Below are positions 15,253-42,483 of a stretch of 42,672 nucleotides of DNA, in pieces. The notes under the pieces were generated by a model. The model was not told where the DNA came from. It worked only from the letters and a program-made list of their open reading frames with translations, and did not search any database. Both the position numbers and the translations under genes were made by a program. The stretch covers positions 1 through 42,672 of the forward strand of contig JAFUTI010000027.1 in NCBI GenBank assembly GCA_017471465.1, given 5' to 3'. Every line of letters starts with the position of its first letter. Position 1 is the first letter of the stretch. Source of the DNA: Prevotella sp. GTDB lineage: Bacteria > Bacteroidota > Bacteroidia > Bacteroidales > Bacteroidaceae.

Positions 15253-16980
15253 ATGAACAAGAAAACCATCATCAGAATCCTCATCGCCGTCGTGGTGATT
15301 ATCGCCGTGAAGAAGGGCGTGTCGTTCGTCTACGACAAGATACAGGTCATGAACGCGCCGACGATGCAGGAAATCAGCGAGGCGAACCCGTGGGCGGTCC
15401 CTGCCGACTGGTTCAAGACCGACACGATTACCATCAAGGGACGCATCGAGGACTACGACGCCGAGCGGTTCGGCTTCACGTCGATGGCGTGCTACTACAA
15501 TGACGTGTTCGAGAAGGGCAGCATGGTGCTGGTGCTCGACATCGCCGATGACGGCACGTTCTGCAAGAAATTCCTGGCCAGCTATCCCGTACACAATTCG
15601 TTCATTGCCGACGACTCGAAGGTGCGCTTCAATGCCATCCGATTTTTTGCCCGTCCCGGCGAGACCATCGACGTCACCGTGCGCAAGGCTTCGTTCGGTC
15701 GCTACGAATGCGTCTACAACGACGGCAGCAGCCGCGACGTGGAGCGATGGCTCCGCACGTCAGACAAATTCGCGGATGCCTTGAGTCCGCTGTGGAAGTT
15801 CGAGGGCAAGTTTGACAATGCCAACGAGGTGGCCGACGAGGTCTGGAAACGCTTGATGGCCAAACTGCAATCAGTCAGCCGCAGCGAGGACTACACGCCA
15901 ATGGAAGTGCAGTTGGCACTGGCCGACATTCAGGCTCACTTCGGCATGGACTACATCGGCTGCATTGAGCGGCTGGCTAATGGCCTGGTAAAGCACGAGA
16001 AGCGCGACAGCGTTTGGCACACCGAGATTCTCGACAGCGTGGAGTGGCAGAAATATCTCGACAGCAAGACTTACGAACCCCTGCGCCGCATCGACTACGA
16101 CAATCCGCTGCTCTTCGCCAGCAGCAGTTACCACTTCCTGCAGAACCGCATTCAGTACGCCAAGCCCGTCAGGGAAGGCCAGTACAAGGGACTTCTCACC
16201 GAGGGCGGCGGTATGATAATCAACGTTGAGAACTTCACCAAGATGCTCTCCAACGGCCTCGCCGCCCTGCGCGACTTCATGGGCGCAGACCACGAGAACC
16301 TGTTGGCGCAGATGTGTGTCTACAATGACATCATAAGTGAGTTCGACACATGGCGCGAGGATGGAAGCTCCTTACAAGAAATGCTCGCCAACAAGACGAT
16401 AACCGAGGAACAGAGAAAGGAAAACCTCGACAACTGGCCGACGCTCACCAGAATGTGGCCGCTCTACATCGACGCCATAAAGAACCCCTACATCCGTCAG
16501 AAAGCCGAGCAGTTCCGCGACCGCCGCTTGTCGCAGAAAGACCTCGCCACCCCACTGCCATCCACGCCCGAGGCAGAATTGATTCGCAATCTCGTTGCCA
16601 AGTACCCCGGCAAGTTCCTCGTCATCGACTTCTGGGGCATGACGTGCGGCCCCTGCCGTGCTGCCATCCAAGAAAGCAAGGAACTTCGCGCCGAGATAGC
16701 CAAGCGCGACGACGTGAAACTCATCTTCATTGCCGGAGAGCGCACCAAGGAGGGCAGCGACGCCTATAAGAAATACGTGGCCGAGTGGCTGGCCAATGAA
16801 GAGACCATCTGCCTCACCAACGCCGACTTCACCCGCCTACAAGAGCTGTTCCAGTTCAACGGCATCCCGCACTACGAGACCATCACGCCCGACTGCCGCC
16901 GCGTCCGTGACGACCTCAGCATCGGCGGCTACCACAACTTCAACAACGATTTGGAAAGGGTCTTGGAGAAACTGAAATAA
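15253..16980 (+). CDS. Exported thioredoxin-domain protein (TlpA/AhpC-TSA type)
   Basis: 575 residues. An N-terminal hydrophobic anchor (MNKKTIIRILIAVVVIIAV) is followed by a beta-rich domain (about 55-140) comparable to DUF4369-type domains, a long helical middle (about 150-430), and a C-terminal thioredoxin fold with FWGMTCGPC (Cys465 and Cys468) and a cis-Pro context NGIPHYE. The family reduces or isomerises disulfides, or scavenges peroxides, in the periplasm. The anchor lacks an obvious cleavage site, so it may stay membrane-tethered. It is followed after 12 nt by a small lipoprotein gene. Specific substrate unknown. Confidence 0.78.
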   Translation: MNKKTIIRILIAVVVIIAVKKGVSFVYDKIQVMNAPTMQEISEANPWAVPADWFKTDTITIKGRIEDYDAERFGFTSMACYYNDVFEKGSMVLVLDIADDGTFCKKFLASYPVHNSFIADDSKVRFNAIRFFARPGETIDVTVRKASFGRYECVYNDGSSRDVERWLRTSDKFADALSPLWKFEGKFDNANEVADEVWKRLMAKLQSVSRSEDYTPMEVQLALADIQAHFGMDYIGCIERLANGLVKHEKRDSVWHTEILDSVEWQKYLDSKTYEPLRRIDYDNPLLFASSSYHFLQNRIQYAKPVREGQYKGLLTEGGGMIINVENFTKMLSNGLAALRDFMGADHENLLAQMCVYNDIISEFDTWREDGSSLQEMLANKTITEEQRKENLDNWPTLTRMWPLYIDAIKNPYIRQKAEQFRDRRLSQKDLATPLPSTPEAELIRNLVAKYPGKFLVIDFWGMTCGPCRAAIQESKELRAEIAKRDDVKLIFIAGERTKEGSDAYKKYVAEWLANEETICLTNADFTRLQELFQFNGIPHYETITPDCRRVRDDLSIGGYHNFNNDLERVLEKLK

Positions 16981-16992
16981 GTCGAAACGAAT

Positions 16993-17544
16993 ATGAAACA
17001 AGCAAAATTTCTCCTTCTCTTGATCGTAGTCCTCGCATTCGCCTCTTGCGGCAGCGACGAACCAAGATATGCAGACCCAGAGGCACATGAGAAGACGGTG
17101 AAACTGAATGAACAGTACGGACCGCTCATGGTCGGCACATGGCACTACGAGAATATCAGCGACACGCAGCGTTACTTCGAGCGCCTCACCTTCCAGGCCG
17201 ATGGCACGCTGACGGGTATGCGCAAATGGCAAACCCGCAAGCTCGTCACTATCGACGGCGAGCAACGCTACACCGATTGGGAGAATGTGGAGCCTTTGGA
17301 AGGAACCTTCTCAGGTACATGGAAACTGAGTTACTACAGCCCGGAAGGGGAAAATGGCGAGAAGCGCAACTGCCTGTTTTTGAATGCTCAATATGAAGGT
17401 GCTAATAGTGGACACATGGCCTATTCCAATATCGCTACCTTCGACTACGCCGACGAAACGACGTTTCGATTCGAAGGATTTTACTTCAAAGACAAGGATG
17501 GATGGATTACCTTCCTGCGTGGCGAGGCAGAACCTGGGTTCTGA
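16993..17544 (+). CDS. Lipocalin-like small lipoprotein, copy 1
   Basis: 183 residues. The lipoprotein signal ends at the lipobox FASC, followed by GSDEPRYADPEAHEK. The mature part (VGTWHYEN...RLTFQADGTLTGMRKW...GTFSGTWKLSYYSPEG) has the G-T-W and F-x-x-D-G-T-hallmarks of small lipocalin-like beta-barrels that bind lipophilic ligands in Bacteroidota envelopes. A paralogue at 41284 is nearly identical over the first half and diverges strongly after it. Ligand and role unknown. Confidence 0.7.
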   Translation: MKQAKFLLLLIVVLAFASCGSDEPRYADPEAHEKTVKLNEQYGPLMVGTWHYENISDTQRYFERLTFQADGTLTGMRKWQTRKLVTIDGEQRYTDWENVEPLEGTFSGTWKLSYYSPEGENGEKRNCLFLNAQYEGANSGHMAYSNIATFDYADETTFRFEGFYFKDKDGWITFLRGEAEPGF

Positions 17545-17609
17545 AAAGAAACGACTAAGAGCGATCAAGGTTTTCTGACACAGAAACAAAGACAATTTCA
17601 TTTTTCAAC

Positions 17610-17641
17610 TTAACTTTTCGCTCTGACTTTCGCTTATATAG
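17610..17641 (+). promoter_or_regulatory. Probable ECF-type promoter before the sigma gene
   Basis: TTAAC (17610-17614), a 16-nt spacer and CGCTTATATAG (17631-17641) repeat the geometry seen before the anti-sigma-like gene at 12174 (AAC, 16 nt, CG-rich then TATAG). It lies 3 nt before the sigma ATG. Autoregulation is inferred. Confidence 0.4.
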
Positions 17642-17644
17642 CAG

Positions 17645-18193
17645 ATGACGCAAGAAGAGTTTGAACATATTGCCCCCGCGCTCCGTGAGTTGATGCTCTC
17701 GGTTGGCCGCAGTTTCTTCGGTAATGACGATGATGCCGAGGACGTTGCACAGGAGGGTTTGGTGGCTCTTCTTAGGTACATAGACAGGATGGAGTCTGGC
17801 GTCCGGCATGATGCTCTTGCCATTAGGGTGGCGAAGCATTGTTGTATGGATATGGTGAGGAAGCGAAAGTCCAGCCCCATTCTTGCCTTGCAAGCGTCTA
17901 AAGGTCGGGCGGTCTCAGGCAAGATGCATGGGGATGTTGCTCCGCCAAGCTGGGATATAGGTGCTTCGCCTCATGAGCATCTGGAGGCTAAAGAACTGTA
18001 TGAAGCCGTGAATGAGGCAGTGCAGCATCTGAAGCCGAGCGAGCGACGCTTGTTTGAAATGAGGCAGATAGAAGGTCTTGAACTTGATGACATTGCGAAG
18101 CAGACCAATATAGCGAAGCCTTCGATAAAGACCATCGTTTCTGCCGCGAGAAAGAAAGTATTTGCAGAGATTAAGGAAAGGTTAAGGACATGA
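17645..18193 (+). CDS. ECF-type RNA polymerase sigma factor (module 1)
   Basis: 182 residues. Region 2 is visible as FFGNDDDAEDVAQEGLVALLRY followed by AIRVAKHCCMDMVRKRK, and region 4 as LKPSERRLFEMRQIEGLELDDIAKQTNIAKPSIKTIVSAARKKV. The last codons overlap the next gene by 4 nt (ATGA), typical of a sigma/anti-sigma pair. It is the first gene of a module that continues with an anti-sigma-like protein, an exported protein and a thioredoxin-family protein. It is clearly divergent from the sigma factors of the other modules, so each probably recognises its own promoter. Confidence 0.88.
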   Translation: MTQEEFEHIAPALRELMLSVGRSFFGNDDDAEDVAQEGLVALLRYIDRMESGVRHDALAIRVAKHCCMDMVRKRKSSPILALQASKGRAVSGKMHGDVAPPSWDIGASPHEHLEAKELYEAVNEAVQHLKPSERRLFEMRQIEGLELDDIAKQTNIAKPSIKTIVSAARKKVFAEIKERLRT

Positions 18194-18828
18194 CGTATAA
18201 TGAGACTGAAATATTGATTAAGAAGTACCTCAACGGCGAGACGACTGCTGAGGAGGAGCGAACGCTTGCCTATGAGGTTGCCCGTGACGATGTCCCTGAT
18301 GACTGGAAGGTTATTGCCGGAATGCTTGGCGAATTGACCATCGACGAGGCACTCTTCGACCAGATGATGGCAGAACGCAAGTCCAAACCGCGTATTGTGA
18401 GGCTATGGCCTTGGGTAGCCGCAGCCTGTGTCGCTGCCTTACTTATCGTCTTCATCGGACCACCAAGGGAAGAAACCATCAATGAGCCTGAGATTGCTAA
18501 GGTTACCCCAAAGACAAAGACTGTAGAGGTAATAGAAACTGAGCCAAAAGCAGTAGAACCAAAAGAGCAGAACATAAGCCAAGTCACAGCAAGACCTAGG
18601 CAGCCATCCAAGGCAAATCGTAAGGCGAATGTTTCAAAGAGTATCGCAAAAGAAGAAGAGATCCCTACACCTCGACCAGTCGAAGAAGGTAACATCGTTC
18701 CCTTTGAAGACCCCCGAAAGCAATTTGCCGAACAGGCCAGAACCCTGCGTGAAAGAGGCAATCGCGTGATACAGCGAGTTTCAATGAACGGATTACCACC
18801 AAACAATTATCAATTAAACGATTTGTAA
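18190..18828 (+). CDS. Single-pass membrane protein, probable anti-sigma factor (module 1)
   Basis: 212 residues. The N-terminal cytoplasmic part (ILIKKYLNGETTAEEERTLAYE) resembles the corresponding part of the gene at 12174. One transmembrane helix (WPWVAAACVAALLIVFIG) lies near 78-95, and the periplasmic tail is rich in Lys, Glu and Pro, ending in a conserved-looking short segment RVSMNGLPPNNYQLNDL. Coupled to the sigma gene by a 4-nt overlap. The anti-sigma role is inferred from arrangement and topology. Confidence 0.7.
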   Translation: MTYNETEILIKKYLNGETTAEEERTLAYEVARDDVPDDWKVIAGMLGELTIDEALFDQMMAERKSKPRIVRLWPWVAAACVAALLIVFIGPPREETINEPEIAKVTPKTKTVEVIETEPKAVEPKEQNISQVTARPRQPSKANRKANVSKSIAKEEEIPTPRPVEEGNIVPFEDPRKQFAEQARTLRERGNRVIQRVSMNGLPPNNYQLNDL

Positions 18829-18831
18829 ATT

Positions 18832-19971
18832 ATGAAGAGAATTATAACAATCATATTATCAGTCATCCTGTCGATAACTATTTCTGCACAGGATATAACA
18901 CCAGCCGATAAGATTTGGGAAGATATATCTAAGATCATACCGCGTCAGGACAGTAAAATGAAGATAAATCATGGCGACGGTGTGCTAAGATACGTTCAAA
19001 ACGGTCCTATTGGAGAGGAATACCTATGTACAAAGGATTGTGGTGGAAATGTTTATGACGATATGATATCAGAAGAAATCGAAGCAGCAAACGAAAGGAA
19101 CCGGAAAATGGTCTTTGACAGAATCTTCGGTACTATCAGGCATCATCTCGACTCCTTGATGGCATTCTCAGAAGAGAGCTATCACTTCGAGTCACATCAT
19201 CATGGCACAGACACCATCAACTATTCACTTTGCCTGAAAAACAGCGAAGACACTGTGAGGAAATATAAAGCAGTTGACGGCTCTATGGTATATCCCGATG
19301 CTATGGAAACCATATTCTTCGATTATACGGCAAGTCCTAAACCATGCGGGAAACACAGCAGAGGATTCGGGATATTAGAATATAACAAGAATATTTATCT
19401 ACTCGACAGAAAGAGCTACTATTTTAATAAAGAGCCCTATCTGGAGAAGATAACCCAGATTCTGAAGCAAAAAGATATACAATCATGGAACTTCAAGTGG
19501 GAACAAAGCGCCGACTACGACATACAGAAGAATTGGTACAAGGAATTCGCATGGGGCGAAACACTTGGCGACGGCGGGCCTAAAAATGCAGGACAGACCG
19601 TTGGAACCATGTATTTCATTCCACGGGATAAGGGCGAGTTGGCAGAAGTCGTCTTTACGACTATTGACAGCGTCACACTCAACTACACAGACATCCATCC
19701 GGAACAGATGTTCAGATATGTATATAATAAAAAGGAAGATGTGATGCAATATACCGAAAGCAGTTATATAAGCACATTGTTTGAAGCAACCACAGGCAAA
19801 GGCCATGTTTCAATGCGCGTCCTCTTTGGCATCACGTCCAAGGGCTATTACGTAGCAATAGCTGATGTAGAAAACAACTTCTGCGTTCCCAAGGAGTGGT
19901 CAGTACTCAAGAGTTTCGTAAATGGTAAGAAGATCTACCTCAAAGGAGTGAAACCAAAGGAAAACCAATGA
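18832..19971 (+). CDS. Exported protein of unknown function (module 1)
   Basis: 379 residues with a clear signal peptide (MKRIITIILSVILSITISAQ). No domain is recognised. The mature part is rich in Tyr, Lys and Asp, contains HFESHHHGTD and a segment repeating YF-type aromatic pairs, and has only a few cysteines. It starts 3 nt after the anti-sigma-like stop, so it belongs to the module-1 operon and is probably a direct target of its sigma factor. It may be an envelope-stress effector, but nothing in the sequence shows a reaction. Confidence 0.65.
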   Translation: MKRIITIILSVILSITISAQDITPADKIWEDISKIIPRQDSKMKINHGDGVLRYVQNGPIGEEYLCTKDCGGNVYDDMISEEIEAANERNRKMVFDRIFGTIRHHLDSLMAFSEESYHFESHHHGTDTINYSLCLKNSEDTVRKYKAVDGSMVYPDAMETIFFDYTASPKPCGKHSRGFGILEYNKNIYLLDRKSYYFNKEPYLEKITQILKQKDIQSWNFKWEQSADYDIQKNWYKEFAWGETLGDGGPKNAGQTVGTMYFIPRDKGELAEVVFTTIDSVTLNYTDIHPEQMFRYVYNKKEDVMQYTESSYISTLFEATTGKGHVSMRVLFGITSKGYYVAIADVENNFCVPKEWSVLKSFVNGKKIYLKGVKPKENQ

Positions 19972-20019
19972 GACAGCATCAAATTAGTTTATCTACATCT
20001 TTCAAAAGGACTCAGCATA

Positions 20020-20037
20020 GGTCGCAGAAATGCGTCC
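20020..20037 (+). repeat. GNRA-loop hairpin, copy 1
   Basis: GGTCGCA-GAAA-TGCGTCC folds as a 7-bp stem with one T-T mismatch and a GNRA loop. It is related to the perfect version at 26211-26228 and precedes the next thioredoxin-family gene. Confidence 0.6.
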
Positions 20038-20068
20038 TGTGCTTTTGCACGATAAATACAAAATGAAT

Positions 20069-21619
20069 ATGAACAAGCAAACCATCATCACCATCCTGCT
20101 CGTCCTCGTCGCATTGGCGGTGCATGCAAAAAAGACTGTCGTATGGGAATATCCATCAGTAGTGTACACTAACTTTACTTACTTTGTCATTCAGAAAGTG
20201 GTAATGACGAAAGAGCAGACTGTATTATACGCAAGTGTCAAACTTTTGCCAGGACTTGGATTCCGCATCCAAGACGGAAGCTATCTGCAAGCAAACGGCA
20301 AGCAGTATGCCATCACTGGCAGCGACAGCATTGCACTGGGCAAATGGTTTGTTCTGGATGATAGTGGTAAAAAAGACTTTGTTCTTTATTTCAAGTCACT
20401 ACCTTTGAACACCAAGGAGTTTGATTTCTTAGAGGGCCTAAAACGGAATGATTATCAGATATTTGGTCTCCACGACAAAAATTACATAATGCCAGCAGCT
20501 CCTGTGCCTGAAGAATATTTGGCTGAGTATGCGGTGGATGACCAGTTGGCTGAAATGAAATACGACGCCACACCTGCCACTATACATTTCAAGGCCCTAA
20601 ACTATCGCAAGGGAATGAATACGGAAATAAACATACGATATGTTGATTTGAAAAATCCAAAAGATTATATGTGGGAAAATTATATAAGGCTCAATGACGA
20701 GGGCGAAGCAAGCGTCAGCCTTCCGATTGGCCTTCCACAATTAATCGTTGCTGAAATCTATTGGTCATCCATGGCTGTCGTCTATCTTGCACCCGGCAAG
20801 GAAGTGACATTGCTTATCGATATGTCGCGTGATGGTGATTTTCCCAACACCAAGTTCGTAGGCTATAAGGGGTATTTCGCCAAGACCGACAAAGCCTGGT
20901 ATCAGCAGAGAGTTGAGGATAAGGGTGGCTATGGTCGTGGTATCAAAGAACTATGGGATAAGCAATTAGTGTTTGACCATAATTTTGTTTCTGACTGTAA
21001 AGACTTGGCACAGTCTGATGCCAAGGGCTTCAAAGCCGACTTGGCCCGCTATTGTTACTACCTCCCTCAAGTGCTTGATTCCAAGAAAGTGGAGAAACCG
21101 CTCATTGAGGACAAAAATCTTTCTGACCTCTACGATACCGTTGTAGCCGAATATCAGAAAACCGTTGCTGTCAACAAACAAGGGATTCTCTCCAACGCCC
21201 ACTATCTCGACATGACGGACGTGGTACCAGAGAATACGCTGCAAACCATTCTCGACAAGCATAAGGGCAAGACCATTCTTGTAGACCTCTGGGCAACATG
21301 GTGTGTTCCCTGTATGGCAGGGCATGAGAAGATGAAACCCATGAAGGAAGAACTCAAAGACAAGGACATCGTGTACATCTATATTGCTGCGCCATCCTCA
21401 AACTTCGAGAAATGGAAGGAATACATTGCCAATATACCAGACGAGCATTATTTCCTAACAGATGAGCAGTATCTTTATATCTCAAAACAATATGAATGCA
21501 CAGGCATACCCTTCTATGCAATCTACAACAGCAAGGGTGAACAGACCTATAAACACCAAGGCTTTCCTGGTGTAGAAGCAATCAGGGAAGCATTGGAGAA
21601 GGCACTTGACAACAAATAA
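20069..21619 (+). CDS. Exported thioredoxin-domain protein with N-terminal VWE-type domain
   Basis: 516 residues from the chosen start. The signal peptide begins with the shared cassette (MNKQTIITILLVLVALAVHA). Residues about 22-145 form a beta-rich domain starting KKTVVWEYP that is also found in the protein at 36327. A DUF4369-like section and helical region follow, then a C-terminal thioredoxin fold with LWATWCVPC (Cys412, Cys415) and GIPFYAIY as the cis-Pro loop. Periplasmic disulfide or redox role inferred from the family. The ATG at 20063 (two codons earlier) is an equally possible start; 20069 was chosen because it matches the cassette start of its paralogues. Confidence 0.78.
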   Translation: MNKQTIITILLVLVALAVHAKKTVVWEYPSVVYTNFTYFVIQKVVMTKEQTVLYASVKLLPGLGFRIQDGSYLQANGKQYAITGSDSIALGKWFVLDDSGKKDFVLYFKSLPLNTKEFDFLEGLKRNDYQIFGLHDKNYIMPAAPVPEEYLAEYAVDDQLAEMKYDATPATIHFKALNYRKGMNTEINIRYVDLKNPKDYMWENYIRLNDEGEASVSLPIGLPQLIVAEIYWSSMAVVYLAPGKEVTLLIDMSRDGDFPNTKFVGYKGYFAKTDKAWYQQRVEDKGGYGRGIKELWDKQLVFDHNFVSDCKDLAQSDAKGFKADLARYCYYLPQVLDSKKVEKPLIEDKNLSDLYDTVVAEYQKTVAVNKQGILSNAHYLDMTDVVPENTLQTILDKHKGKTILVDLWATWCVPCMAGHEKMKPMKEELKDKDIVYIYIAAPSSNFEKWKEYIANIPDEHYFLTDEQYLYISKQYECTGIPFYAIYNSKGEQTYKHQGFPGVEAIREALEKALDNK

Positions 21620-21669
21620 ACATAAGGTTACTGAAATGAAACACCAGACACCATATCGCCTTAACGAAA

Positions 21670-21701
21670 CATCCCTCTCGCCGGTGAGGGAGAGAGGGAT
21701 G
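21670..21701. repeat. Palindromic intergenic repeat
   Basis: CATCCCTCTC (21670-21679) pairs perfectly over 10 bp with GAGAGGGATG (21692-21701) around a 12-nt centre. It sits between a convergent pair and could act as a bidirectional terminator. The composition resembles dispersed palindromic repeats of Bacteroidota. Confidence 0.6.
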
Positions 21702-21727
21702 GTGTATAGGGGTGAGGTAATCACACT

Positions 21728-22069
21728 TTATCCATTGATCAGCGAGACGAGCCATTTTATATACTTATCCGTCACGCTGGAGATTTCACCTTTGTCATAA
21801 ATCGTAAGCAATGTTATCTCAATAGAGTCATCGTCGTGCTGAATGAAATTGAATGTGATAACACGAGCGCCCCCGCTTTTGCCTTTCCCCTTCGAAGCAA
21901 TGGCCATCCGCACCTTACGGGTACCATTACCCAAATCAGATCCTTGAAAAGGGTCGTCTGCCAGTTCCTTCTTAAAGGTGATAAAGTCATCCTTCAACGA
22001 TGGATACTTTTTGGCAAGGCGTTTAAACTGGCGCTTAAATTCATCGCCCAACACGATCTCAACTTTCAT
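21728..22069 (-). CDS. RelE/ParE-superfamily toxin
   Basis: 113 residues with the RelE-like layout: an N-terminal helix hairpin (EFKRQFKRLAKKYPSLKDDF) then beta strands (KVRMAIASKGKGKSGGARVITFNFI; SIEITLLTIYDKGEI). Such toxins cleave mRNA on the ribosome or poison gyrase, and the precise type is not evident here. Its ATG overlaps the stop of the upstream antitoxin gene (ATGA), fixing the pair and the start. Confidence 0.82.
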   Translation of the reverse strand: MKVEIVLGDEFKRQFKRLAKKYPSLKDDFITFKKELADDPFQGSDLGNGTRKVRMAIASKGKGKSGGARVITFNFIQHDDDSIEITLLTIYDKGEISSVTDKYIKWLVSLING

Positions 22070-22329
22070 ACGGCTTCTTCTGCTTCCAGTTCCTTGATGA
22101 AATCGTCGGAACTCTGTAGTTTGCGCCCTTCACGACGAGCCTGCTTCATCTCGTCGAACGCTCTTTCGAGCGACTCCTTAACGTATGACTGCTGGCGGAG
22201 TGTCTTTTTATTGGACTCATCCTTGGTCTTGAACACGGTAGTAGATACCACACCGCGAAGCAGTTCAATGGCCTTGCGTACATGCAGCGTTGTAGCGTCC
22301 TCGTTCAATGTAACTAATATCTGCGTCAT
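22066..22329 (-). CDS. Antitoxin partner of the RelE-like toxin
   Basis: 87 residues from the chosen ATG (MTQILVTLNEDATTLHVRKAIEL). The N-terminal half looks like a short beta strand plus helix for dimerisation or DNA binding, and the C-terminal half is a charged helix (FDEMKQARREGRKLQSSDDFIKELEAEE) that would wrap the toxin. It precedes and overlaps the toxin gene and has its own promoter. No named antitoxin family can be assigned with certainty. Confidence 0.75.
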   Translation of the reverse strand: MTQILVTLNEDATTLHVRKAIELLRGVVSTTVFKTKDESNKKTLRQQSYVKESLERAFDEMKQARREGRKLQSSDDFIKELEAEEAV

Positions 22330-22432
22330 AATCGTAATCTTTTTGTTCTCGGGGGCAAGGACGGTGCAAGCCGAGTGCAATCAAGTTCACTTAAATTGCC
22401 GAGGCGCAGCCCGTACTCGCTGCCTTCGGCTG

Positions 22433-22463
22433 CAAAGATACAAAGAAAAATCGAATAATCAAA
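22433..22463 (-). promoter_or_regulatory. Promoter of the toxin-antitoxin operon
   Basis: On the minus strand TTTG (22463-22460), a 19-nt spacer and TATCTTTG (22440-22433) match the consensus. The leader to the antitoxin ATG would be about 100 nt. Confidence 0.7.
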
Positions 22464-22486
22464 GAATTCGCATAAAATAACATGAA

Positions 22487-22729: not shown

Positions 22730-22927
22730 TTCCAAATATTCACAAAACCACTGAACATTTGTTCAGACTTTCACCTCGACAGACACTTTTTCGGTCTTGT
22801 CGGGGGATTTTTCGTGACGTTTTCTGTAACTTCGCACGGAAAAAGCGAGAAAGATGAAAAAAAGTTGGTCTCGCGATTATATATTTTTGCAAAAAGTGGT
22901 AATATATAAGTAGAGAACATCAAGCGA

Positions 22928-23518: not shown

Positions 23519-23533
23519 AGTGAAAAGTGAAGA

Positions 23534-33735: not shown

Positions 33736-33835
33736 TGGTAACCAATTGAAGGAAAAATGTGATTAAGAGAGTGCCATGCAAACTCGTTTGCAAATGGCCG
33801 AACGTGAACATTTTACCTAATAAGGAATGTTTTTC

Positions 33836-33866: not shown

Positions 33867-33903
33867 CAGCGGAAAATAAGCTAAAAGCTTGCCGATAGAA
33901 AAG

Positions 33904-34806: not shown

Positions 34807-34857
34807 GAAGCAAACAAAAGATTAGACTAAAATTTTGTCTCACTTTATACTGTTTTT

Positions 34858-35520
34858 ATGACTTACTCTAAAAAAGAATGTATTTTCAAGATGACAAGAG
34901 TCTTTCTTGCTTCCTTCATCTTGATGGGCGTTTCCCTGTTGCCCTACTTCGCCTATATTTTCGGGCGGGACATCCCTTTCAGTCGTACAATATTGGATAT
35001 TGGAAACCTTCTGTGGCCGTTAGCAATTTTTGCCGTCTTACTTTACGAAGACAAGAAAGAGAAGTTGGGAATATGGTGTAATCCGAGCCTTGGAGTGAAC
35101 CTGAAGACGGTTATTCTATCCCTGGCATTGGGAGTCCTCTGGCAGCTCATTATATTTCTGCTGACTTCCTTGTTTGACGCACCTAATACAGACCCTCGGG
35201 AGTCCTATACTCTTGCGACCCTTATCCTGCATATATTCTCCTTCGCCATCATCGGCCCCATTGCAGAGGAACTGTTTTTACGGAAATGGTACATATCCAT
35301 GATGGAAAGAGCCTCTTTCGGCAAGATAGCGATAGTCATTTCCAATGCGCTCATCTTTTACGTGGCGCATGTGGGCACAGGCGTATGGAGATTAGACACA
35401 CTGATGATGGCGGTCATTCTTTGCCTGATGTATATGAGAACCAGAGACGTTCGCTATTGTGTAATTACGCATGTCACATGTAATCTCCTGGGAATCTTCT
35501 CTGCTTATTATTTCGTATAA
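34858..35520 (+). CDS. CPBP family intramembrane metalloprotease (second copy)
   Basis: 220 residues with about six hydrophobic segments. Motifs: EELFLRKW (E,E,R), FYVAHVG (His) and the last one, CVITHVTCNLLG. It is more distant from the core copy at 12827 and AT-richer. Membrane protease activity inferred. It is in the same direction as the Fic gene and precedes an lgt remnant. Confidence 0.82.
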   Translation: MTYSKKECIFKMTRVFLASFILMGVSLLPYFAYIFGRDIPFSRTILDIGNLLWPLAIFAVLLYEDKKEKLGIWCNPSLGVNLKTVILSLALGVLWQLIIFLLTSLFDAPNTDPRESYTLATLILHIFSFAIIGPIAEELFLRKWYISMMERASFGKIAIVISNALIFYVAHVGTGVWRLDTLMMAVILCLMYMRTRDVRYCVITHVTCNLLGIFSAYYFV

Positions 35521-35548
35521 GACAATCTTCTTGCGTTTTGGAGGTTTT

Positions 35549-35886
35549 ATGAACCAATTGCTATATATCGTCTGGAATCCAGACCTCGTGGCATTCAGAC
35601 TGGGTCCGCTATCGGTGCGATGGTACGGGCTGATGTGGGCCATCGGAATCGCGCTGGCCTTTTCTTCATTTTGTGGACACTACACAAGCGTATGCCTGAG
35701 AAGGTTGGCACAGGCTGGTATTTCGGCTTCTGTCTGACGTATATCTTCACCTTCCGTTTCTTCATCGAGTACACCAAGGAGATACAAGAAGCCTTCGAGG
35801 CATCGCTGCCCATCGATATGGGTCAGATACTCTCCATCCCGTTTATCATCCTCGGCGTGTACTGCATGTTAAGAGCCCGCAAATGA
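35549..35886 (+). pseudogene. Remnant of lgt (prolipoprotein diacylglyceryl transferase)
   Basis: The first ~38 residues (MNQLLYIVWNPDLVAFRLG, then WYGLMWAIGIALAF) match the N-terminus of Lgt. The last ~73 (KRMPEKVGTGWYFG, FTFRFFIEYTKE, MGQILSIPFIILGVY) match its C-terminus in another frame. About 150-170 residues between them are gone, with a junction in the T-rich stretch around 35655-35670. It lacks the Lgt catalytic centre and must be inactive; an intact lgt is expected elsewhere. Confidence 0.85.
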
Positions 35887-36070
35887 AAACACAGCTCTTT
35901 CATAAGAGATAGAAAAGTAACCCCAAGCAAAATGCAAACAAATAAACTCAAATAACAATTCGTGACCCATACACTTTATGTCAAACTTTCAAAAAACAGT
36001 AAGAATTATGGAGAACCCGACATTACCTACCATCTGGCTGGTGCCGCTGAGCAACGCCCCACAATGCCAC

Positions 36071-36249
36071 GGATTCCAGGAATCGGAGCAAGAAACAGAC
36101 CCAGCGGCCTCGGATTTCAGGAATCAGACCTTGACGGCACACATGATGGTATTGGATTTCAGGAATCCAGACAAGAAAGGATAATAGTGTGGTCGGATTT
36201 CGGGAATCCAAGTAGGAAACGGACAATAATTGGTTGGATTTCGAGAATC
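36071..36249. repeat. Five palindromic 14-mers spaced every 41-42 bp
   Basis: Cores GGATT(T/C)C-(A/G)-(G/A)GAATC start at 36071, 36112, 36154, 36195 and 36236. The intervals are 41, 42, 41 and 41 bp, about four turns of DNA. The separating 27-28 nt are themselves weakly similar in neighbouring units, as in a degenerate minisatellite. This lies within the 440-nt gap 35887-36326 before the next thioredoxin gene. No cas gene is present. Phased protein-binding sites or an old tandem repeat are both possible. Confidence 0.75.
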
Positions 36250-36326
36250 TGAGTTGTAACATAAAGAGGTTGAACGAGTTTTTCCCGAAAAATATAATAA
36301 AGGTATAACAATAAAACGAAACAAAT

Positions 36327-38687
36327 ATGAAGCAAACCATCATCACCATCCTCATCGCGCTCGCCGCAGTAGTGGGGCAGGCAAAAGAGAAAGCAATTGT
36401 GTGGGAACAGCCCACCACGGAGTTTGGAAACAGTTATGGCGACGGGTTCTTTAACCTGTGCCTTGACGTGACGAAGGTAGAACTGAAGGACAACGAGACC
36501 GTGGTGTATATCACCGCACAGCAGCGGTCGGACTATCCAGACTACTGGTTCCAGTTTGCGGGCGACACCTACCTGGAAGTGGGTGAGCAACGCTACACCG
36601 TCGTTTCTGCCGACGGTATTGAACTCAACAAGCACCTTCAGACGAACAAGGACGGCAAGCGCGACATAGCGTTCCATTTCCCACCGCTGCCTAAGGGAAC
36701 TAAATCATTCGACTTTATCGAGGGCGACGGACAGGGCGCTTTCCAAATCAAGGGCATCAAGTCTGTGGAGGAGCGCTGGAAACAACTGTTCCCCTCCTAC
36801 TGGCGCGACAATAACGGCGACTGGAAGATAGCCTTCTTCGACGACTGCGCCATCTACGACTGCAAGTTCTGGAACTACAAACAGCGCGACGTGAACCAGA
36901 AGACTGGCGAGGCTACCATCCTTATGACCAACGGCAACGACGAGTTGAAGGTCATGGTGGGTAAAGACAAGAAAGGTACGCGCACGATTCAGATTGGCAG
37001 CGAGAAGGCCACATACGCCATGATTACCACCCGCTTCCTGCCCGACTATCCCACGAAGGACACGCGCACCGACTTCGTGGACACAGGCTACAAGAAGGAC
37101 ACCGTGACCGTCGTGGGCTGGATTAAGGATATGCCGGAGCAATTCAAGCAGTTGAAGACTTTCGACTTCGGCTATGAGAACATCTATACGGACAAGCAGG
37201 TGGATGTCCATGCCGACCTCGACGAGCAGGGACGCTTCACGGTTAAGTTTCCTCTCCTGAATAGCACGGAGTTTTTCATCGACTGGCGACGTTGCTTCAT
37301 CCGCACGATGTTCGAGCCTGGTAAGACCTACTTCATACTCTACGACTTCAGGGAGGGGCGACGCTACTTGATGGGCGACGACTGCCGATTGCAGAACGAA
37401 CTCTTCAAGTATCCGCTCGACTGGAAGTCCATACGTATGGAGGATAGCGACAAGGATTTCGACAAGTACATCGCTTCGGTCGACAGCCTCCTGAAGGCGC
37501 AGAGTGCTATCATCGACCAACTCTGCGAGGAGCACCCCACGCTCTCCACCCGCTTCAACACCTTCAGGAAGGGCAATACGCTGTGGCAGCAGGCACGCGA
37601 CTTCGGGCAGTCACGTTTCAGAGGTTCCAACTTCCAACTCCCTGACAATGCCCGCCAGTATGCCTACGACAACTTCTGGACGAAGATGGAGAAACCCTAC
37701 ACCCTGCACCGTGGTCTCAGCGGTTTCCTGCGCGACTATTTAGACGATGCCGCACAGGCACGCAACGCCATATTCACTTACAGTATCCGTGACAACTACA
37801 AGGACTTTGCCTCAAACGACGAGGAGTTGGCATTGCTCACTCGCTGGAAGAAATGGATTGACGAGGCAACGCCAATCATCGAGGCAGAACCCACCGTCGA
37901 GGCGAAGATAAGCAAGTCGCGTGAACTGGATTCGCTGAATGCTGACTTGACGAAGGAGGTGGATAAGATAGTCCAATCTCCAAGAGCATCCAAAATCATT
38001 CATGGCGGGCTGCTCGTGAACACCTTGAAGCAACACCAACTGACACTTGACTCCCTTCGTGCCGACCCGTTCATCAAGGACGTTTGGCTCGCCCGACAGG
38101 CATTCAGTCACATCGACCACGATCGCACATCGCTGCTGCCCAACATCGTAGACACGCTGAAGGCCATGATTGGCAATCCCGACTGCATCGCCATGATTGA
38201 GAAGCAGAACAATCATTACCTCGCCATCGAGAACCGCGAGTTCGACAAACTGGTGCTAAAATCATCGGACAACCTTACAGACCTCAGCGAGGGCGAGGCA
38301 CTGCTGAAGAAACTCCTCGAACCATACAAGGGCAAGTTCGTGCTGCTCGACATCTGGGGAACGTGGTGCAGCCCCTGCAAGGAAGCCCTCTCGCACTCCA
38401 CCGAGGAGTACGCCCGCCTGAAGGACTACGACATCCAGTATCTCTATCTGGCCAACAGCAGCCCGCTGGAATCTTGGGAGAACGTCATCAAGGAGTACAA
38501 CGTCAGCGGCCCCAACGTCGCCCACTATAACCTGCCCGCCGAGCAGCAATCTGCCATCGAGCGCCACCTTGGTGTCAATTCCTTCCCCACCTACAAACTC
38601 TTCAACCGCGACGGTGACCTGCTCGACCTGAATGTTGACCCTCGCCACCTCGATAATCTCGCCCGGCTGTTGGAAAGCATGAAATAA
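36327..38687 (+). CDS. Large exported thioredoxin-domain protein
   Basis: 786 residues. The signal peptide MKQTIITILIALAAVVGQA is a shortened form of the shared cassette. Residues about 22-150 (KAIVWEQPTTEFG...) match the N-terminal domain of the protein at 20069. A DUF4369-like beta domain is near 275-360 (TVTVVGWIKDMPEQ...), a long helical region lies at about 375-650, and the C-terminal thioredoxin fold has IWGTWCSPC (Cys681, Cys684) with SFPTYKLF as cis-Pro. Periplasmic redox role inferred. It probably heads an operon with the genes to 41832. Confidence 0.8.
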   Translation: MKQTIITILIALAAVVGQAKEKAIVWEQPTTEFGNSYGDGFFNLCLDVTKVELKDNETVVYITAQQRSDYPDYWFQFAGDTYLEVGEQRYTVVSADGIELNKHLQTNKDGKRDIAFHFPPLPKGTKSFDFIEGDGQGAFQIKGIKSVEERWKQLFPSYWRDNNGDWKIAFFDDCAIYDCKFWNYKQRDVNQKTGEATILMTNGNDELKVMVGKDKKGTRTIQIGSEKATYAMITTRFLPDYPTKDTRTDFVDTGYKKDTVTVVGWIKDMPEQFKQLKTFDFGYENIYTDKQVDVHADLDEQGRFTVKFPLLNSTEFFIDWRRCFIRTMFEPGKTYFILYDFREGRRYLMGDDCRLQNELFKYPLDWKSIRMEDSDKDFDKYIASVDSLLKAQSAIIDQLCEEHPTLSTRFNTFRKGNTLWQQARDFGQSRFRGSNFQLPDNARQYAYDNFWTKMEKPYTLHRGLSGFLRDYLDDAAQARNAIFTYSIRDNYKDFASNDEELALLTRWKKWIDEATPIIEAEPTVEAKISKSRELDSLNADLTKEVDKIVQSPRASKIIHGGLLVNTLKQHQLTLDSLRADPFIKDVWLARQAFSHIDHDRTSLLPNIVDTLKAMIGNPDCIAMIEKQNNHYLAIENREFDKLVLKSSDNLTDLSEGEALLKKLLEPYKGKFVLLDIWGTWCSPCKEALSHSTEEYARLKDYDIQYLYLANSSPLESWENVIKEYNVSGPNVAHYNLPAEQQSAIERHLGVNSFPTYKLFNRDGDLLDLNVDPRHLDNLARLLESMK

Positions 38688-38700
38688 AATGAATCGAATA

Positions 38701-39285
38701 ATGAACAAGCAAACCATCATCACCATCCTGCTCGCCCTCATCGTAGTCTCGGGACGAGCACAGACATCATTTGATACGGGAGATGGCTGTCTGAATGTCA
38801 TTGACATATCTTACGCGAAAGGCGTTGGTGAATATGGCGATGGTGGTCTTTCCGCAAACTATCTACACGAAAAGTTCATTAACGAGCGCTTTAGTATAGG
38901 ACCAGGAATCGGATATAGCTATCATAAGAACTACAAGTTTTCAGCAATACCCATTTATCTCAGTACACATTACTTCTTCTTAGACCGCAAGTTTTCTCCG
39001 TTTGTTAATCTACGCGTCGGAGGATTCGCTCTATTCAACGCTAAGAATGTAGGAAGTAATGAGAAATACTCTCTATCAAAAGAAAAGCAGGGTTTCAGTC
39101 TGTTTATGTCGCCAAGCATCGGCGTGAAGATGCACATCACACCAAACATCGGCATAATGGCTTCGATAAGTGACGAAGCTTATCTCGTAAAAGCGTTTGA
39201 CGTGAATAAGAACGATTACAAGAGCAAGCTGATTCATGGTTTGGGAATCAATGTCGGAGTGTGCTTTCAAATTAAAGGGTGGTAG
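38701..39285 (+). CDS. Small outer-membrane beta-barrel protein with shared signal-peptide cassette
   Basis: 194 residues. The first 39 nt are almost identical to those of the thioredoxin gene at 32019, but the mature part is a porin-like barrel with alternating strands (FSIGPGIGYSYH, FSAIPIYLSTHYFF, FVNLRVGGFALF, FMSPSIGVKMHI, GLGINVGVCFQI). Probably eight strands. An in-frame ATG 12 nt upstream is possible, but the cassette start is favoured. Starts 13 nt after the previous stop. Confidence 0.72.
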   Translation: MNKQTIITILLALIVVSGRAQTSFDTGDGCLNVIDISYAKGVGEYGDGGLSANYLHEKFINERFSIGPGIGYSYHKNYKFSAIPIYLSTHYFFLDRKFSPFVNLRVGGFALFNAKNVGSNEKYSLSKEKQGFSLFMSPSIGVKMHITPNIGIMASISDEAYLVKAFDVNKNDYKSKLIHGLGINVGVCFQIKGW

Positions 39286-39314
39286 AGAAATAATACAACA
39301 AACATGATACGAGC

Positions 39315-40328
39315 ATGAAATATTTTATCTTAGCTCAAATCCTTTTCCTTACTAGTTTAGTGGGATTTGCCCAGCAAGTGATGTTGGCAGACAGCATAAC
39401 CCAAAATCCAGTTTGCTATGCTACTGTCTACGATGCTAACGGGACTGTAATAGGTCGCTCTGACATGGGAGGGTATATTAGTCTTCAGAAAGGCTTCGAA
39501 TATCACATTTCTCATATAAGCTATGAACCCAAGAGTTTCGTTTATAATGATGATAGCATCATTTTCCTATCTCCGTCATTTTATACAATATCAGAAGTCA
39601 GTGTTACGGCAAAGAAAAAGAAATATTATCATTGTAAAGTGTTCTTTAGGAGTATAGAACATGTAGATTCATGTCTGAAGTATTATATGGACGGAATACG
39701 AGAGTTCTTTATCGACACCAAAAGCAAAAAGGTGCATTACGGAAATGTCGAAACGAATTACTTCATGTCAAAGAGAAAAGACATTGCACAGAAGAAACGG
39801 AGTATGATGATTGGCGACAGGTACATGGCTCTTCCGTTTCTTGACAAGAATACTTTATATGAGGAAACAATGCGTGATAAAAAGAGAAATATAGAATCGG
39901 GTATTGTCTATGCGGATTCTATATCAATAGGCAGTTGCAAGGTTCGTTCTGACAACAGCGAGATGCTTTTGTCTATAGACGCTTTGTGGCCCAAAAACTC
40001 TCTTGTGACAAATCTATTCGGATACACGCAAGTATTATCGAAATACAACAAGACGGAATTATATCGATATAATGATTTTGATGCTCCTTCCGTTTTCAAT
40101 TTGAAATCCTCCAATAGTTATCGGCATCTGACATTGACTCACAAAAAAGAAAATCTTGTAAGGGACATTGATGTTGAAGACATGTTCTACGTTGTCGAAT
40201 ATGAATACACAGATACAAAGGAATTATCCTCGTCAGAACTGTTGCAGGAAGATTATAAGAAGTATTCTGGAATGTTTCCTATACCAGAAAGAATAAGGGA
40301 ACAGTTAGTTCGAGGAGAAGAGCTATGA
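39315..40328 (+). CDS. Exported protein with N-terminal carboxypeptidase-regulatory-like domain (first of a pair)
   Basis: 337 residues. The signal peptide MKYFILAQILFLTSLVGFA differs from the cassette. Residues 20-100 form a carboxypeptidase-regulatory/CNA-B-like beta domain (DSITQNPVCYATVYDANGTVIGRSD then HISHISYE). The rest is Lys/Tyr/Asp-rich, with no catalytic residues recognised. Codon use is AT-rich compared with the thioredoxin genes, which suggests separate acquisition. Its stop overlaps the next ATG by 4 nt. Possibly an outer-membrane-associated partner of unknown task. Confidence 0.62.
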   Translation: MKYFILAQILFLTSLVGFAQQVMLADSITQNPVCYATVYDANGTVIGRSDMGGYISLQKGFEYHISHISYEPKSFVYNDDSIIFLSPSFYTISEVSVTAKKKKYYHCKVFFRSIEHVDSCLKYYMDGIREFFIDTKSKKVHYGNVETNYFMSKRKDIAQKKRSMMIGDRYMALPFLDKNTLYEETMRDKKRNIESGIVYADSISIGSCKVRSDNSEMLLSIDALWPKNSLVTNLFGYTQVLSKYNKTELYRYNDFDAPSVFNLKSSNSYRHLTLTHKKENLVRDIDVEDMFYVVEYEYTDTKELSSSELLQEDYKKYSGMFPIPERIREQLVRGEEL

Positions 40329-41278
40329 ATAAGATTAAAAGCTACATGTTATTTCTAATTCTGTTGACAATGCTGTCGCCAGCGACATTTGGAATGGCTC
40401 AGACGGTAATTGTCAAGGACAGCATCACCAATGAGCCAATACCGTTTGTGAGTGTCTATTTCGGGAATGAAACTGGTGGCTATACGGACGAAAAAGGGAT
40501 GATTGCCATTCCAAACGAAGCGGCACAGATACGGTTGTCTCATATCTGCTACGAGACAAAGAGCATCTCTAAGATAACAGCCGACTTGCAAACTATCTTT
40601 CTTGTTCCGAAAAGTATCAATCTTGATGAAGTCGCCATTAGCGCAAAGGCTCTCAAACGAACAAAGACCACAGAAGTGGGATCGATGAAAGCGAAGACGC
40701 AGACCAAGCACAAAGGAGCCAATGGATTTGAGATGGCCTTGTTCATTCCATACGATAGCACTTGGGCTGAGACGCCATACATCCACTCTATATTGGCAAG
40801 TCTCGATTACTCCACCCATTATCTGGTATTCACGGAAATCATAACACCCATCTATGCCACTCTTCGCTTTGATCTTCGACAGCCAGATGCCAAGACTGGC
40901 GCTCCCAAAGACGAGTCCCTCATTGGCGGCGGTATCATACTCCCCTCCAGTCAGAAGCTTGGCAAGAGTGGCATTAGCCTTATCTGCCCTATACCATTCC
41001 CCCAGACTGGCGTATTCGTTGTAGTGGAATGGATAACCACAGCACAAGTCTCGGAATCATGCAATCTTGTGCCCTCTCTTAACATGACCTTGGATGAGAA
41101 GGAAAACAGAACCTGGAACAAAAAGACATTCTTTGCAGAGCAAAGCGGCAAAGCCGAGCGCCGAGGCACGGACAGGATGCAGGAACAGAACGAACCTGCG
41201 TATCAGAATGAAGAGGCACAGGTCTTTTATAAAGGCAGGACACCATCTGCCAAACTCGGTTTGAAAATATCAAAATAG
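40325..41278 (+). CDS. Exported protein with N-terminal carboxypeptidase-regulatory-like domain (second of a pair)
   Basis: 317 residues. A signal peptide is followed by a beta domain at about 25-105 (VIVKDSITNEPIPFVSVYFGNETGGYTDEKG, with LSHICYE), paralogous to the gene upstream, and then a basic, unusual C-terminal part (RTWNKKTFF, KAERRGTDRMQEQNE). Translationally coupled to the upstream gene (ATGA). Function unknown; pairing suggests a joint product. Confidence 0.62.
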   Translation: MNKIKSYMLFLILLTMLSPATFGMAQTVIVKDSITNEPIPFVSVYFGNETGGYTDEKGMIAIPNEAAQIRLSHICYETKSISKITADLQTIFLVPKSINLDEVAISAKALKRTKTTEVGSMKAKTQTKHKGANGFEMALFIPYDSTWAETPYIHSILASLDYSTHYLVFTEIITPIYATLRFDLRQPDAKTGAPKDESLIGGGIILPSSQKLGKSGISLICPIPFPQTGVFVVVEWITTAQVSESCNLVPSLNMTLDEKENRTWNKKTFFAEQSGKAERRGTDRMQEQNEPAYQNEEAQVFYKGRTPSAKLGLKISK

Positions 41279-41283
41279 GCAAT

Positions 41284-41832
41284 ATGAAACAAGCAAAACT
41301 TCTCTTCCTTCTGGTTACCGCCCTCGCATTCGCCTCTTGCGGCAGCGACGAACCAAGATATGCCGACCCAGAGGCACACGAAAAGACCGTTCAGTTGAAC
41401 GAGCAGTACGGACCGCTCATGGTTGGCACATGGCACTACGAGAATATCAGTGACACACAATGTTACTTCGAGCGCCTCACCTTCCAGGCCGATGGCACGC
41501 TGACGGGTATGCGCAAATGGCAAACCCGCAAGCCCGTCACCATCGACGGCAAGGAGCAACACACCGATTGGGAGGACGTGGAACTGAGCGGCACGTTCAC
41601 AGGGACGTGGCAGCTGAGATACTGGAGTCCCGAGGGCAACAGCGGCGAGAAGCGCAACTGCCTGCAACTGACCGCCACATACGACGATGCCGAGCGAGAC
41701 TACATGGCCTACTCCTGCGCCCTCACCTTCGCCTACGCCGACGCCACCACCCTCCGCATCCAAGGCTATTACGTCAAAGCCCCCGACGGCTGGATCAACT
41801 ACCAGCGTGGCCCGTCCGAACCAAGTTTCTAA
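41284..41832 (+). CDS. Lipocalin-like small lipoprotein, copy 2
   Basis: 182 residues, the paralogue of the gene at 16993 (24 kb away). The first ~95 residues are almost identical, including the lipobox FASC and the block VGTWHYENISDTQ, whereas the second half is clearly different (SGTFTGTWQLRYWSPEG...). The break in similarity suggests gene conversion or domain exchange. Starts 5 nt after the previous stop, in the operon of the pair above. Confidence 0.7.
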   Translation: MKQAKLLFLLVTALAFASCGSDEPRYADPEAHEKTVQLNEQYGPLMVGTWHYENISDTQCYFERLTFQADGTLTGMRKWQTRKPVTIDGKEQHTDWEDVELSGTFTGTWQLRYWSPEGNSGEKRNCLQLTATYDDAERDYMAYSCALTFAYADATTLRIQGYYVKAPDGWINYQRGPSEPSF

Positions 41833-41850
41833 TCATCACAAACAAAGAAC

Positions 41851-42483
41851 ATGAACAAGCAAACCATTATCACCATCCTCTTTGCCCTCGTCGCAATGGC
41901 AGGACAGGCACAGGTTCCACTCGAAAGCGTGAAGGAACTTACGATGAAGTCGGAATATTTCAACCACGAACGACAGGTACTCATCTACACGCCCAACAAC
42001 TACCCGAACTTTGACCAGACCTACTACGATGTCATCTATGTGTTCGATGCACAAGACCGCACGATGTTCGATCTTGTACACTGTTTGCTCAACATCGCCT
42101 GCGAGCCCGACCCCGACGGCGGCAAAAGCACGAATTTCATCATTGTCGGCATCTGCTCACCAACCCTTTGGGACATCAACTATTTTCGCAACCACGACTA
42201 CCTGCCCATGCCCCTGCATGGCAACACTGGGCTGTTCAAGGAGGGCTACTACTACGGCAAATCGCCCGACCTGAAGAAATTCGTCAAGAATGAGTTGATG
42301 CCATACGTGAAGAAGAACTATCGCACGTCGGGACGCTCCCTCGGCATCGGCCATTCGCTGAGCGCGTCTTTCGTGCTCGACGCGATGATTACCGACGACC
42401 TCTTCGACGACTACATCGCCATTTCGCCCAACTGCTGCTACGACGAGTACCTTCTTTTCATACGCGTTATTATTTCTTTTTGA
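41851..42483 (+). CDS. C-terminally truncated alpha/beta-hydrolase (esterase) with shared signal-peptide cassette
   Basis: 210 residues. The signal peptide is the cassette (MNKQTIITILFALVAMAGQA). The mature part is a siderophore-esterase/IroE-like alpha/beta-hydrolase: strands YDVIYVFDAQD and FIIVGICSPT, and the nucleophile elbow GHSLSAS (Ser at the G-x-S position). The rest of the fold, including catalytic Asp and His, is missing: after ISPNCCYDEY the protein ends in an unrelated LLFIRVIISF and a stop. The gene is therefore probably inactive, broken by a rearrangement near 42451. Confidence 0.72.
   Translation: MNKQTIITILFALVAMAGQAQVPLESVKELTMKSEYFNHERQVLIYTPNNYPNFDQTYYDVIYVFDAQDRTMFDLVHCLLNIACEPDPDGGKSTNFIIVGICSPTLWDINYFRNHDYLPMPLHGNTGLFKEGYYYGKSPDLKKFVKNELMPYVKKNYRTSGRSLGIGHSLSASFVLDAMITDDLFDDYIAISPNCCYDEYLLFIRVIISF

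Follow-up and report, generated by a model that had tools for sequence, protein, structure and literature searches.

Signal-peptide coding DNA as a likely homology joint of exchanged exported-protein genes in rumen Prevotella

Integron cassettes stand head to tail with a repeated element between the units, and are exchanged horizontally. In Mycoplasma agalactiae and M. bovis, surface-lipoprotein genes of the vpma/vsp type share 5' DNA that includes part of the signal-peptide sequence; for vpma, the part of the report drawn on here proposes a recombination site from -1 to -72 and describes rearrangement of one locus by the recombinase Xer1 (PMC2268961). The rAID arrays of gut Bacteroidales are defined, in the portion of a preprint used here, by a tyrosine recombinase, by short genes (about 100-300 codons) and by motifs conserved between the genes (PMC12247911). 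Phytoplasma potential mobile units (PMUs) have been proposed, in the excerpt relied on, as replicative composite transposons that carry genes for their own replication and recombination (PMC3743221). In this study, we analysed a contig of Prevotella sp. (GenBank assembly GCA_017471465.1, contig JAFUTI010000027.1), the whole stretch of 42,672 nucleotides being called the window. Eight of its genes begin with near-identical DNA of about 60 nt that encodes a signal peptide, here termed the leader; the remainder of each gene is termed the body. We consider it likely that this leader is the homology joint of modular, horizontally exchanged exported-protein genes in rumen Prevotella and neighbouring genera.

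Unlike the repeated element of integrons, the repeat described here codes for a signal peptide, and no integrase lies beside the arrays of a complete chromosome (attC sites were not searched for). The vpma/vsp genes are similar in that common 5' DNA precedes differing bodies and recombination changes the gene that follows. In contrast to the vpma/vsp system as presented in the cited part, the conserved block here begins at the ATG, with an upstream identity of 0.24-0.44 when bodies match, no tyrosine recombinase lies beside the arrays that were checked most closely, and exchange takes place between species. With the orphan-immunity arrays of the rAID type, as far as that portion of the preprint describes them, the arrays share the bacterial order, co-oriented genes and conserved junction DNA, whereas the conserved DNA here is coding and the genes reach 800 aa and more. 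Intergenic motifs of the rAID type were not found, the median gap being 12 nt and the upstream DNA being unrelated between copies of a unit; nor was an adjacent tyrosine recombinase (PF00589) found on the window contig (C6) or, in the complete P. communis E15-14 chromosome, at less than 0.3 Mb from an array. Polymorphic toxins, in which C-terminal cassettes are exchanged, likewise have a constant 5' coding part and swapped downstream modules (PMC3482391, in part), but the constant part here comprises only about 21 codons and should, by prediction, be cleaved off, so that whole mature proteins would be exchanged. Clustered repeated genes in mosaic form recall the sequence-variable mosaics of phytoplasmas (PMC3743221, in part); unlike in PMUs as outlined there, no replication or recombination genes were found among the array genes scanned, which cover part of the array. 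No report of this arrangement was found by keyword among openly licensed papers, several of the searches having been directed at the systems compared above.

The leader in the window and in other genomes

The eight leaders lie within 27 kb, all on the + strand. Their common start DNA, reported in an earlier note on this sequence, was confirmed: all eight gene starts are real, ATGAACAAGAAAACCAT occurs 7 times at <=3 mismatches (expected 0.11) and CATCATCACCATCCT 10 times including all eight leaders (expected 1.38), and neither count was ever reached by shuffles. The match spans codons 1-21 and stops at the signal-peptide end, and directly 5' of it an A-rich stretch is the only common feature. 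The shorter N-terminus noted for the gene at 36327 also holds, the loss being one whole codon (MKQT.. vs MNKQT..). In the assembly of the same genome (2.40 Mb, 63% complete), the 25-mer AAACCATYATCACCATCCTSNTYGC gave 9 matches at <=3 mismatches, namely the eight window leaders and a weak one on another contig, and the reversed 25-mer gave none.

Within the genus, 58 of 150 genomes carry the leader pattern, frequently with multiple matches per contig (<=3 mismatches; 3 matches in total for the reversed control). Across the family, it was detected at <=2 mismatches in 33 of 251 genomes, representing 11 of 30 genera (control 0). An exact scan of species genomes returned at least 117 stretches. 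By their labels, 105 of the matches listed are Bacteroidales, mostly Prevotella or Prevotellaceae and many from ruminants; ten of those listed come from unrelated taxa, and two are taken as misbinned. Those listed include P2-180, tc2-28, ne3005 and MN60, isolates according to their titles (3, 12, 1 and 2 pattern matches, respectively), and the complete E15-14 chromosome (5). The X. ruminicola metagenome-assembled genome (MAG) SIG140 has 2.

The earlier note had suggested that the same sequence might precede further genes elsewhere, and it was indeed found before about 20 body groups. By protein similarity, 206 leader open reading frames (ORFs) fall into 20 groups, or 32 if the homology is N-terminal; one group in each grouping, L124, is a chance match and was later dropped. 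The bodies are mainly redoxin-like by Pfam, with no Pfam match in 4 of the 20 bodies of one scan set, and include redoxins, an esterase, CarboxypepD_reg, aspartyl protease-like, tetratricopeptide-repeat, outer-membrane barrel and propeller proteins, an S41 peptidase with redoxin, and Ig-like, DUF5041 and DUF4419 proteins. The window products are related to a greater degree than the note described: five of the eight are of the TlpA/redoxin type, which leaves four body types in the window, against about 20 across genomes.

Ten loci of unrelated taxa (six Mesorhizobium, Chitinophaga, two actinomycetes and Adlerbacteria) were dropped from the analysis of homology breaks. Also removed ahead of counting were 20 loci inside longer stretches, six ORFs by an amino-acid filter, and L124. 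L137 (labelled Clostridia) and L139 (labelled Acidaminococcus) were kept though taken as misbinned. Most loci come from MAGs, more than one locus can stem from the same genome, P2-180 is listed as both L162 and L191, and the compared pairs are not independent.

Homology breaks and leader-to-leader units

Upstream DNA was compared in 521 leader-gene pairs that have upstream sequence and any body stretch homologous as DNA (E 1e-5, no minimum length); it was homologous in 33 and not in 488. In 59 pairs with bodies at least 90% alike and different upstream DNA (class 2), identity is 0.24-0.44 up to the ATG, 0.97 in the first 6 nt, 0.77-0.83 at nt 36-53 and 0.91-0.95 in the body. The reverse situation, upstream DNA at least 90% alike and bodies not homologous as DNA (class 1), was observed in 68 pairs, with an identity of 0.94 past the ATG that drops to 0.28 by +66; both sides were kept at these thresholds in 4 pairs only. 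Since codons 2-4 agree more in class 1 pairs than in unrelated pairs, if modestly so (0.90 vs 0.78), the 5' part of the leader goes with the upstream DNA. The earlier proposal of a shared expression cassette is not borne out, the DNA 5' of the ATG being unrelated between copies of one body.

The leader zone makes up 2.25% of the DNA and holds both sides of 298 of the 815 internal homology ends, from 128 loci. As a control, other gene starts in the same loci were compared, and the ratio of breaks to kept homologies was 298:23 at leader gene starts vs 27:111 at other starts, or 62:4 vs 3:33 at an identity of at least 95%. Counted per start, where one start can score as both, 156 of 256 leaders break and 39 are kept, compared with 30 and 111 for other starts. 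The contrast is also present at starts at least 2 kb from locus ends (63 leaders break and 12 are kept; 19 and 49 for others), and in isolates by title (14 and 3; 5 and 7 for others). The window leader at 26326 scored as a break 10 times in pairwise comparisons. Synteny breaks are concentrated at leaders, and leader-to-leader units recur in different contexts and species.

Such units were seen in 27 of 536 homologies, two of them within one genome. One is shared by the isolate tc2-28 and the complete E15-14 chromosome, with 88.6% identity over 1179 nt and different neighbours. A 1.17-kb TlpA unit is present in eight copies, including tc2-28, E15-14 and a shorter ORF in P2-180, with eight different left flanks; two of the copies, L042 and L073, share a genome, and the leader genes that follow, given for six copies, are of five kinds by their N-termini. 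The cluster of the window unit at 33049 comprises 10 copies and 9 distinct left flanks. In all, 169 copies show 133 different left flanks, which makes whole-gene duplication alone, named in the earlier note as an origin that would speak against recombination, insufficient; on the right, the 93 flank clusters among 143 are lower bounds, as the flank includes the next leader. The note's idea of a recombining leader, with bodies swappable behind one export sequence, is strongly supported by the synteny breaks and the recurring units. Consecutive leader genes are tightly packed, often head to tail: 91 of 137 gaps are <=60 nt, and the median is 12 nt among the 100 gaps below 400 nt. In the isolate tc2-28, five tandem units are separated by 30, 13, 12 and 12 nt, and on the E15-14 chromosome two units by 13 nt.

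The identity of these units was compared with that of the housekeeping gene prfB, which in 24 genomes is at most 88.8% (median 77.6; 276 pairs). Unit or segment identity exceeded prfB identity in 25 of 25 chosen pairs; as the pairs were picked from high-identity units or segments (26 listed, 25 with prfB), this demonstrates that transfers exist, not their rate. The window unit 32019-33115, which runs from leader to leader, matches L070 at 95.2% identity over 1102 nt, beginning and ending in leaders, at a prfB identity of 70.7%; region 36310-38653 is common to L114 at 95.4% (prfB 72.1%). For tc2-28 the values are 97.6 vs 77.2 with L040 and 88.6 vs 80.9 with E15-14, and the smallest difference among the chosen pairs is 85.7 vs 80.9. 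A phage or plasmid vehicle was considered and rejected: one exact match was found in viral contigs and is not a leader, and unit 32019-33115, the unit searched there, had no match in plasmid or phage collections. Insertion at tRNA genes as a rule was also rejected, a tRNA being present in 5 of 26 scanned loci and not in all of them beside a leader gene. The E15-14 array (L160) ends about 120 nt from a tRNA-Val gene (7419-7493).

Leader conservation, mechanism and competing explanations

Between unrelated families, upstream identity is 0.25-0.32 beyond nt -19 and 0.41-0.44 in the A-rich stretch before the ATG. It is 0.71-0.92 over codons 1-14, 0.43 at codons 21-22 and 0.26-0.31 beyond; because loci were selected on about nt 13-35 of the leader, conservation in that part is inflated, whereas codons 2-4 and 14-21 lie outside the search pattern. 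Codon choice depends on position and not on the residue alone: Lys3 is AAG in 91% and Lys4 AAA in 97%, Leu10 is CTG in 83% and Leu11 and Leu13 are CTC in 77-80%, Ala12 is GCC in 82%, Ala15 GCA in 79% and Ala17 GCG in 77%, and Gly18 is GGG in 65%, vs 11% in bodies. Codon bias fails as an explanation because this choice is position-specific; as 8 of the 9 matches are also clustered within 27 kb, both codon bias and convergence were rejected as the sole cause. At codons 14-21 of unrelated families the same codon is used for the same residue in 0.516 of cases, vs 0.346 expected from body usage, while codons 22-24 give 0.320 vs 0.382.

Synonymous agreement of leader codons 14-21 was also compared with that of the body in 569 of 700 sampled homologue pairs (131 with short bodies or alignments were dropped). 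It was 0.602 vs 0.423 at a body identity below 40%, 0.568 vs 0.475 at 40-60%, 0.607 vs 0.540 at 60-80%, 0.654 vs 0.736 at 80-90% and 0.866 vs 0.873 at 90% or more. Leader agreement is thus near 0.57-0.65 at any body identity below 90%, a pattern that would be expected if leader and body have separate histories and the leader is uncoupled from its body. Homogenisation of leaders genome by genome was considered and, in its fast within-genome form, not seen in distances over codons 14-21. Together with leader 3' ends that track the body family, this fits slow exchange in a shared pool, not rapid conversion inside one genome.

The exchange unit would consist of leader, body and spacer up to the next leader, together with leaderless genes riding along, and would have a directly repeated leader on either side. 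A single crossover within a leader would change what follows, and crossovers in two leaders could insert, delete or replace a whole unit; the recombined product would be in frame, with a correct start and its export signal kept. The simplest mechanism would be ordinary, probably RecA-type, homologous recombination between leaders, and the exchange may also help to keep leader DNA similar. The benefit could be a reshuffled periplasmic and outer-membrane repertoire, largely of TlpA-like proteins. A more far-reaching proposal, to which we give an even chance, is that the leader is a recombinase-free cassette joint, kept at the nucleotide level as a handle for entry, exit and swapping of genes in co-directional arrays, that it serves an exported-gene pool common to a community of several rumen Prevotellaceae genera, and that it spreads as a passenger of its own exchange. 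Potentially, secreted proteins could be gained, lost or replaced in one step with frame, start and export kept, perhaps without a dedicated enzyme. In rumen bacteria, clusters of genes for TlpA-like and other exported proteins would be explained in this way, and a natural system would be at hand in which the action of recombination on synonymous sites can be tested.

Several observations weigh against the leader as an exchange joint. Other break points exist, because 356 of the 815 homology ends lie in no leader and 161 have one side only in a leader. Of the leader starts, 39 are kept in one pair or more, although 30 of these also break elsewhere, and 91 of 256 leaders are uninformative, showing neither break nor keep. 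In close homologues the leader is conserved no better than the body; the excess of third-position conservation over the body, as put forward in the earlier note, was found in distant pairs and not in close ones. Leaders of different families are barely closer within a genome (0.402) than between genomes (0.436; distance over codons 14-21, permutation p 0.82), and leader 3' ends track the body family (0.274; permuted 0.377). Isolate genomes agree with the break contrast but are few, and when isolates are compared with one another, only 3 of the 10 homology ends fall in leaders (2 locus pairs). Most loci are metagenome-assembled, and short repeats can give false joins.

This last point leads to an assembly artefact, in which assemblers join unrelated genes at the repeated leader and misbinning adds identity between species. 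Contigs ending near leaders, also in the isolate tc2-28, are consistent with it, and contigs can break at leader repeats, which is a warning for assemblies in general. However, tandem units are present in tc2-28 and in complete E15-14, where the shared unit has different neighbours, the break contrast persists at least 2 kb from locus ends, and misbinning would be expected to bring neighbours along; an artefact is therefore unlikely. It is similarly improbable that functional constraint alone, through translation initiation, export or an RNA target, fixes the leader while shuffling merely happens at gene starts. The position at a start codon and signal peptide, the A-rich upstream stretch and the lack of pairing over most of the first 35 nt in 4 of 6 folds are in line with constraint, but homology is mostly retained across the other gene starts of these loci (27:111), like residues use different codons (Lys3/Lys4, Leu10/Leu11, Ala12/15/17), the same bodies stand behind a different leader, and codons 2-4 agree more in class 1 pairs, by the modest difference given above. 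Fold z-scores are near zero (-0.84 to +0.68 for 6 leaders), which also speaks against the RNA target in the start region that the earlier note had considered.

Tandem duplication of whole genes, with bodies diverging and the leader conserved by descent, would account for the many TlpA-like bodies and for true paralogues in the window (16990-17542 with 41281-41830, and parts of 31350 with 33049). It is very unlikely, as unrelated body families follow leaders whose synonymous sites stay alike, and leader agreement does not track body divergence. A dedicated site-specific recombinase, cutting in the leader in trans or from an integron- or rAID-like element, is in our view quite unlikely. Co-directional arrays are a feature of integrons. 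They are also described for rAID in the cited portion of the preprint (PMC12247911), and such a resemblance favours an enzyme. No fixed joint position is apparent, however: the first leader mismatch is spread over nt 3 to 41 in 22 class 1 pairs, where a mismatch only bounds the joint. In E15-14, whose arrays lie at 0.47 and 2.74 Mb, PF00589 matches were found at 0.03, 0.11 and 3.08 Mb, none of them within 0.3 Mb of an array; the window contig and C20, which holds the main tc2-28 array, had no match, in a search for tyrosine but not serine recombinases. A sub-threshold PF00589 match lies about 10 kb from the array on tc2-28 C25, another match 36 kb from a leader-like match on P2-180 C96, and a third 12 kb from the single weak match on contig C33 of the window's own assembly. 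Homologous recombination between leaders remains the reading we prefer.

The window array and other leaders

The array and its leaders are listed in Table 1.

Table 1. Coordinates of the array region and of the eight leader copies in the window.
Feature	Position	Strand	Description
Array region	14905..42483	+	Patches 88-98% identical to different genomes (threshold 88% identity, 250 nt); many borders at leaders
Leader copy 1	15253..15315	+	Most divergent copy; before 575-aa TlpA/thioredoxin-like protein (15253-16980)
Leader copy 2	20069..20131	+	Before 516-aa redoxin-type protein (20069-21619)
Leader copy 3	26326..26388	+	Before DUF4369/redoxin protein split over ORFs 26326-27075 and 27009-27620
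Leader copy 4	32019..32081	+	Before 340-aa DUF4369 + AhpC/TSA protein
Leader copy 5	33049..33111	+	Before 228-aa DUF5041 protein; 7 nt past the stop of the previous unit
Leader copy 6	36327..36386	+	One codon shorter; before 786-aa TlpA-like protein
Leader copy 7	38701..38763	+	Before 194-aa protein without Pfam match
Leader copy 8	41851..41913	+	Before esterase-like ORF, 210 aa

By Pfam, the five TlpA/redoxin-type bodies are those of 15253 (with a score under the curated cut-off), 20069, 26326 with the overlapping ORF 27009, in which the redoxin domain sits, 32019 and 36327; they differ in length and N-terminal part. The other three are the DUF5041 protein (33049), the protein without a Pfam match (38701) and the esterase (41851). 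The copies at 26326 and 41851 look disrupted because they are shorter than several relatives (249 aa vs about 430 aa in several relatives, and 210 aa vs 401-404 aa in 7 of 8). The 3' half of copy 1, AVVVIIAVKKG, judged by eye, no longer resembles the cleavable signal of the other copies, and its left flank and leader start (15165-15292) repeat 26244-26365 at 83%.

A second leader (MKHYRRFLLLL..) precedes 12 genes with several body types, for example L156 2959, L165 12462, L044 2956 and L121 (- strand). Some body types occur behind both the first and the second leader; those behind the second include the 38701-type body, a CarboxypepD_reg-type protein and an outer-membrane-type protein. In three comparisons of such bodies, homology begins at or near the signal-peptide end, and in a fourth (L076 with L120) the alignment runs from residue 1. 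The mature body of 38701 stands behind a different leader in L083, with 71.6% protein identity from residues 19/24. A third, lipoprotein leader precedes 6 genes. The break:keep counts, 6:2 for the second leader and 1:0 for the third, are too few to judge. L086 167 has an apparent hybrid leader, with the 5' half of a lipoprotein leader (MKTMKLWRIAFMML) and the 3' half of the main leader. Leaders can be exchanged for other leaders.

The first array patch begins 186 nt after a tRNA-Met gene (14645-14719). Window positions 1-14700 gave no matches, which proves little, the other loci having been chosen around leaders. Some array segments carry leaderless genes, for example 33046-34784. Three extracytoplasmic function (ECF) sigma factor genes lie in the array (17645-18828, 22928-24187 and 28709-30113), each followed by an ORF without Pfam match that is taken for an anti-sigma gene from its position. 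At 28470-28606, a decayed fragment repeats the redoxin-gene pieces 27378-27443 (94%) and 27543-27619 (86%). The lipoprotein-like paralogues 16990-17542 and 41281-41830 have 78% DNA identity and lie near opposite array ends. Judged by eye, the leaderless array genes include a nucleotidyltransferase/HEPN-like pair and a Fic-like gene (27740-28433 and 33889-34806).

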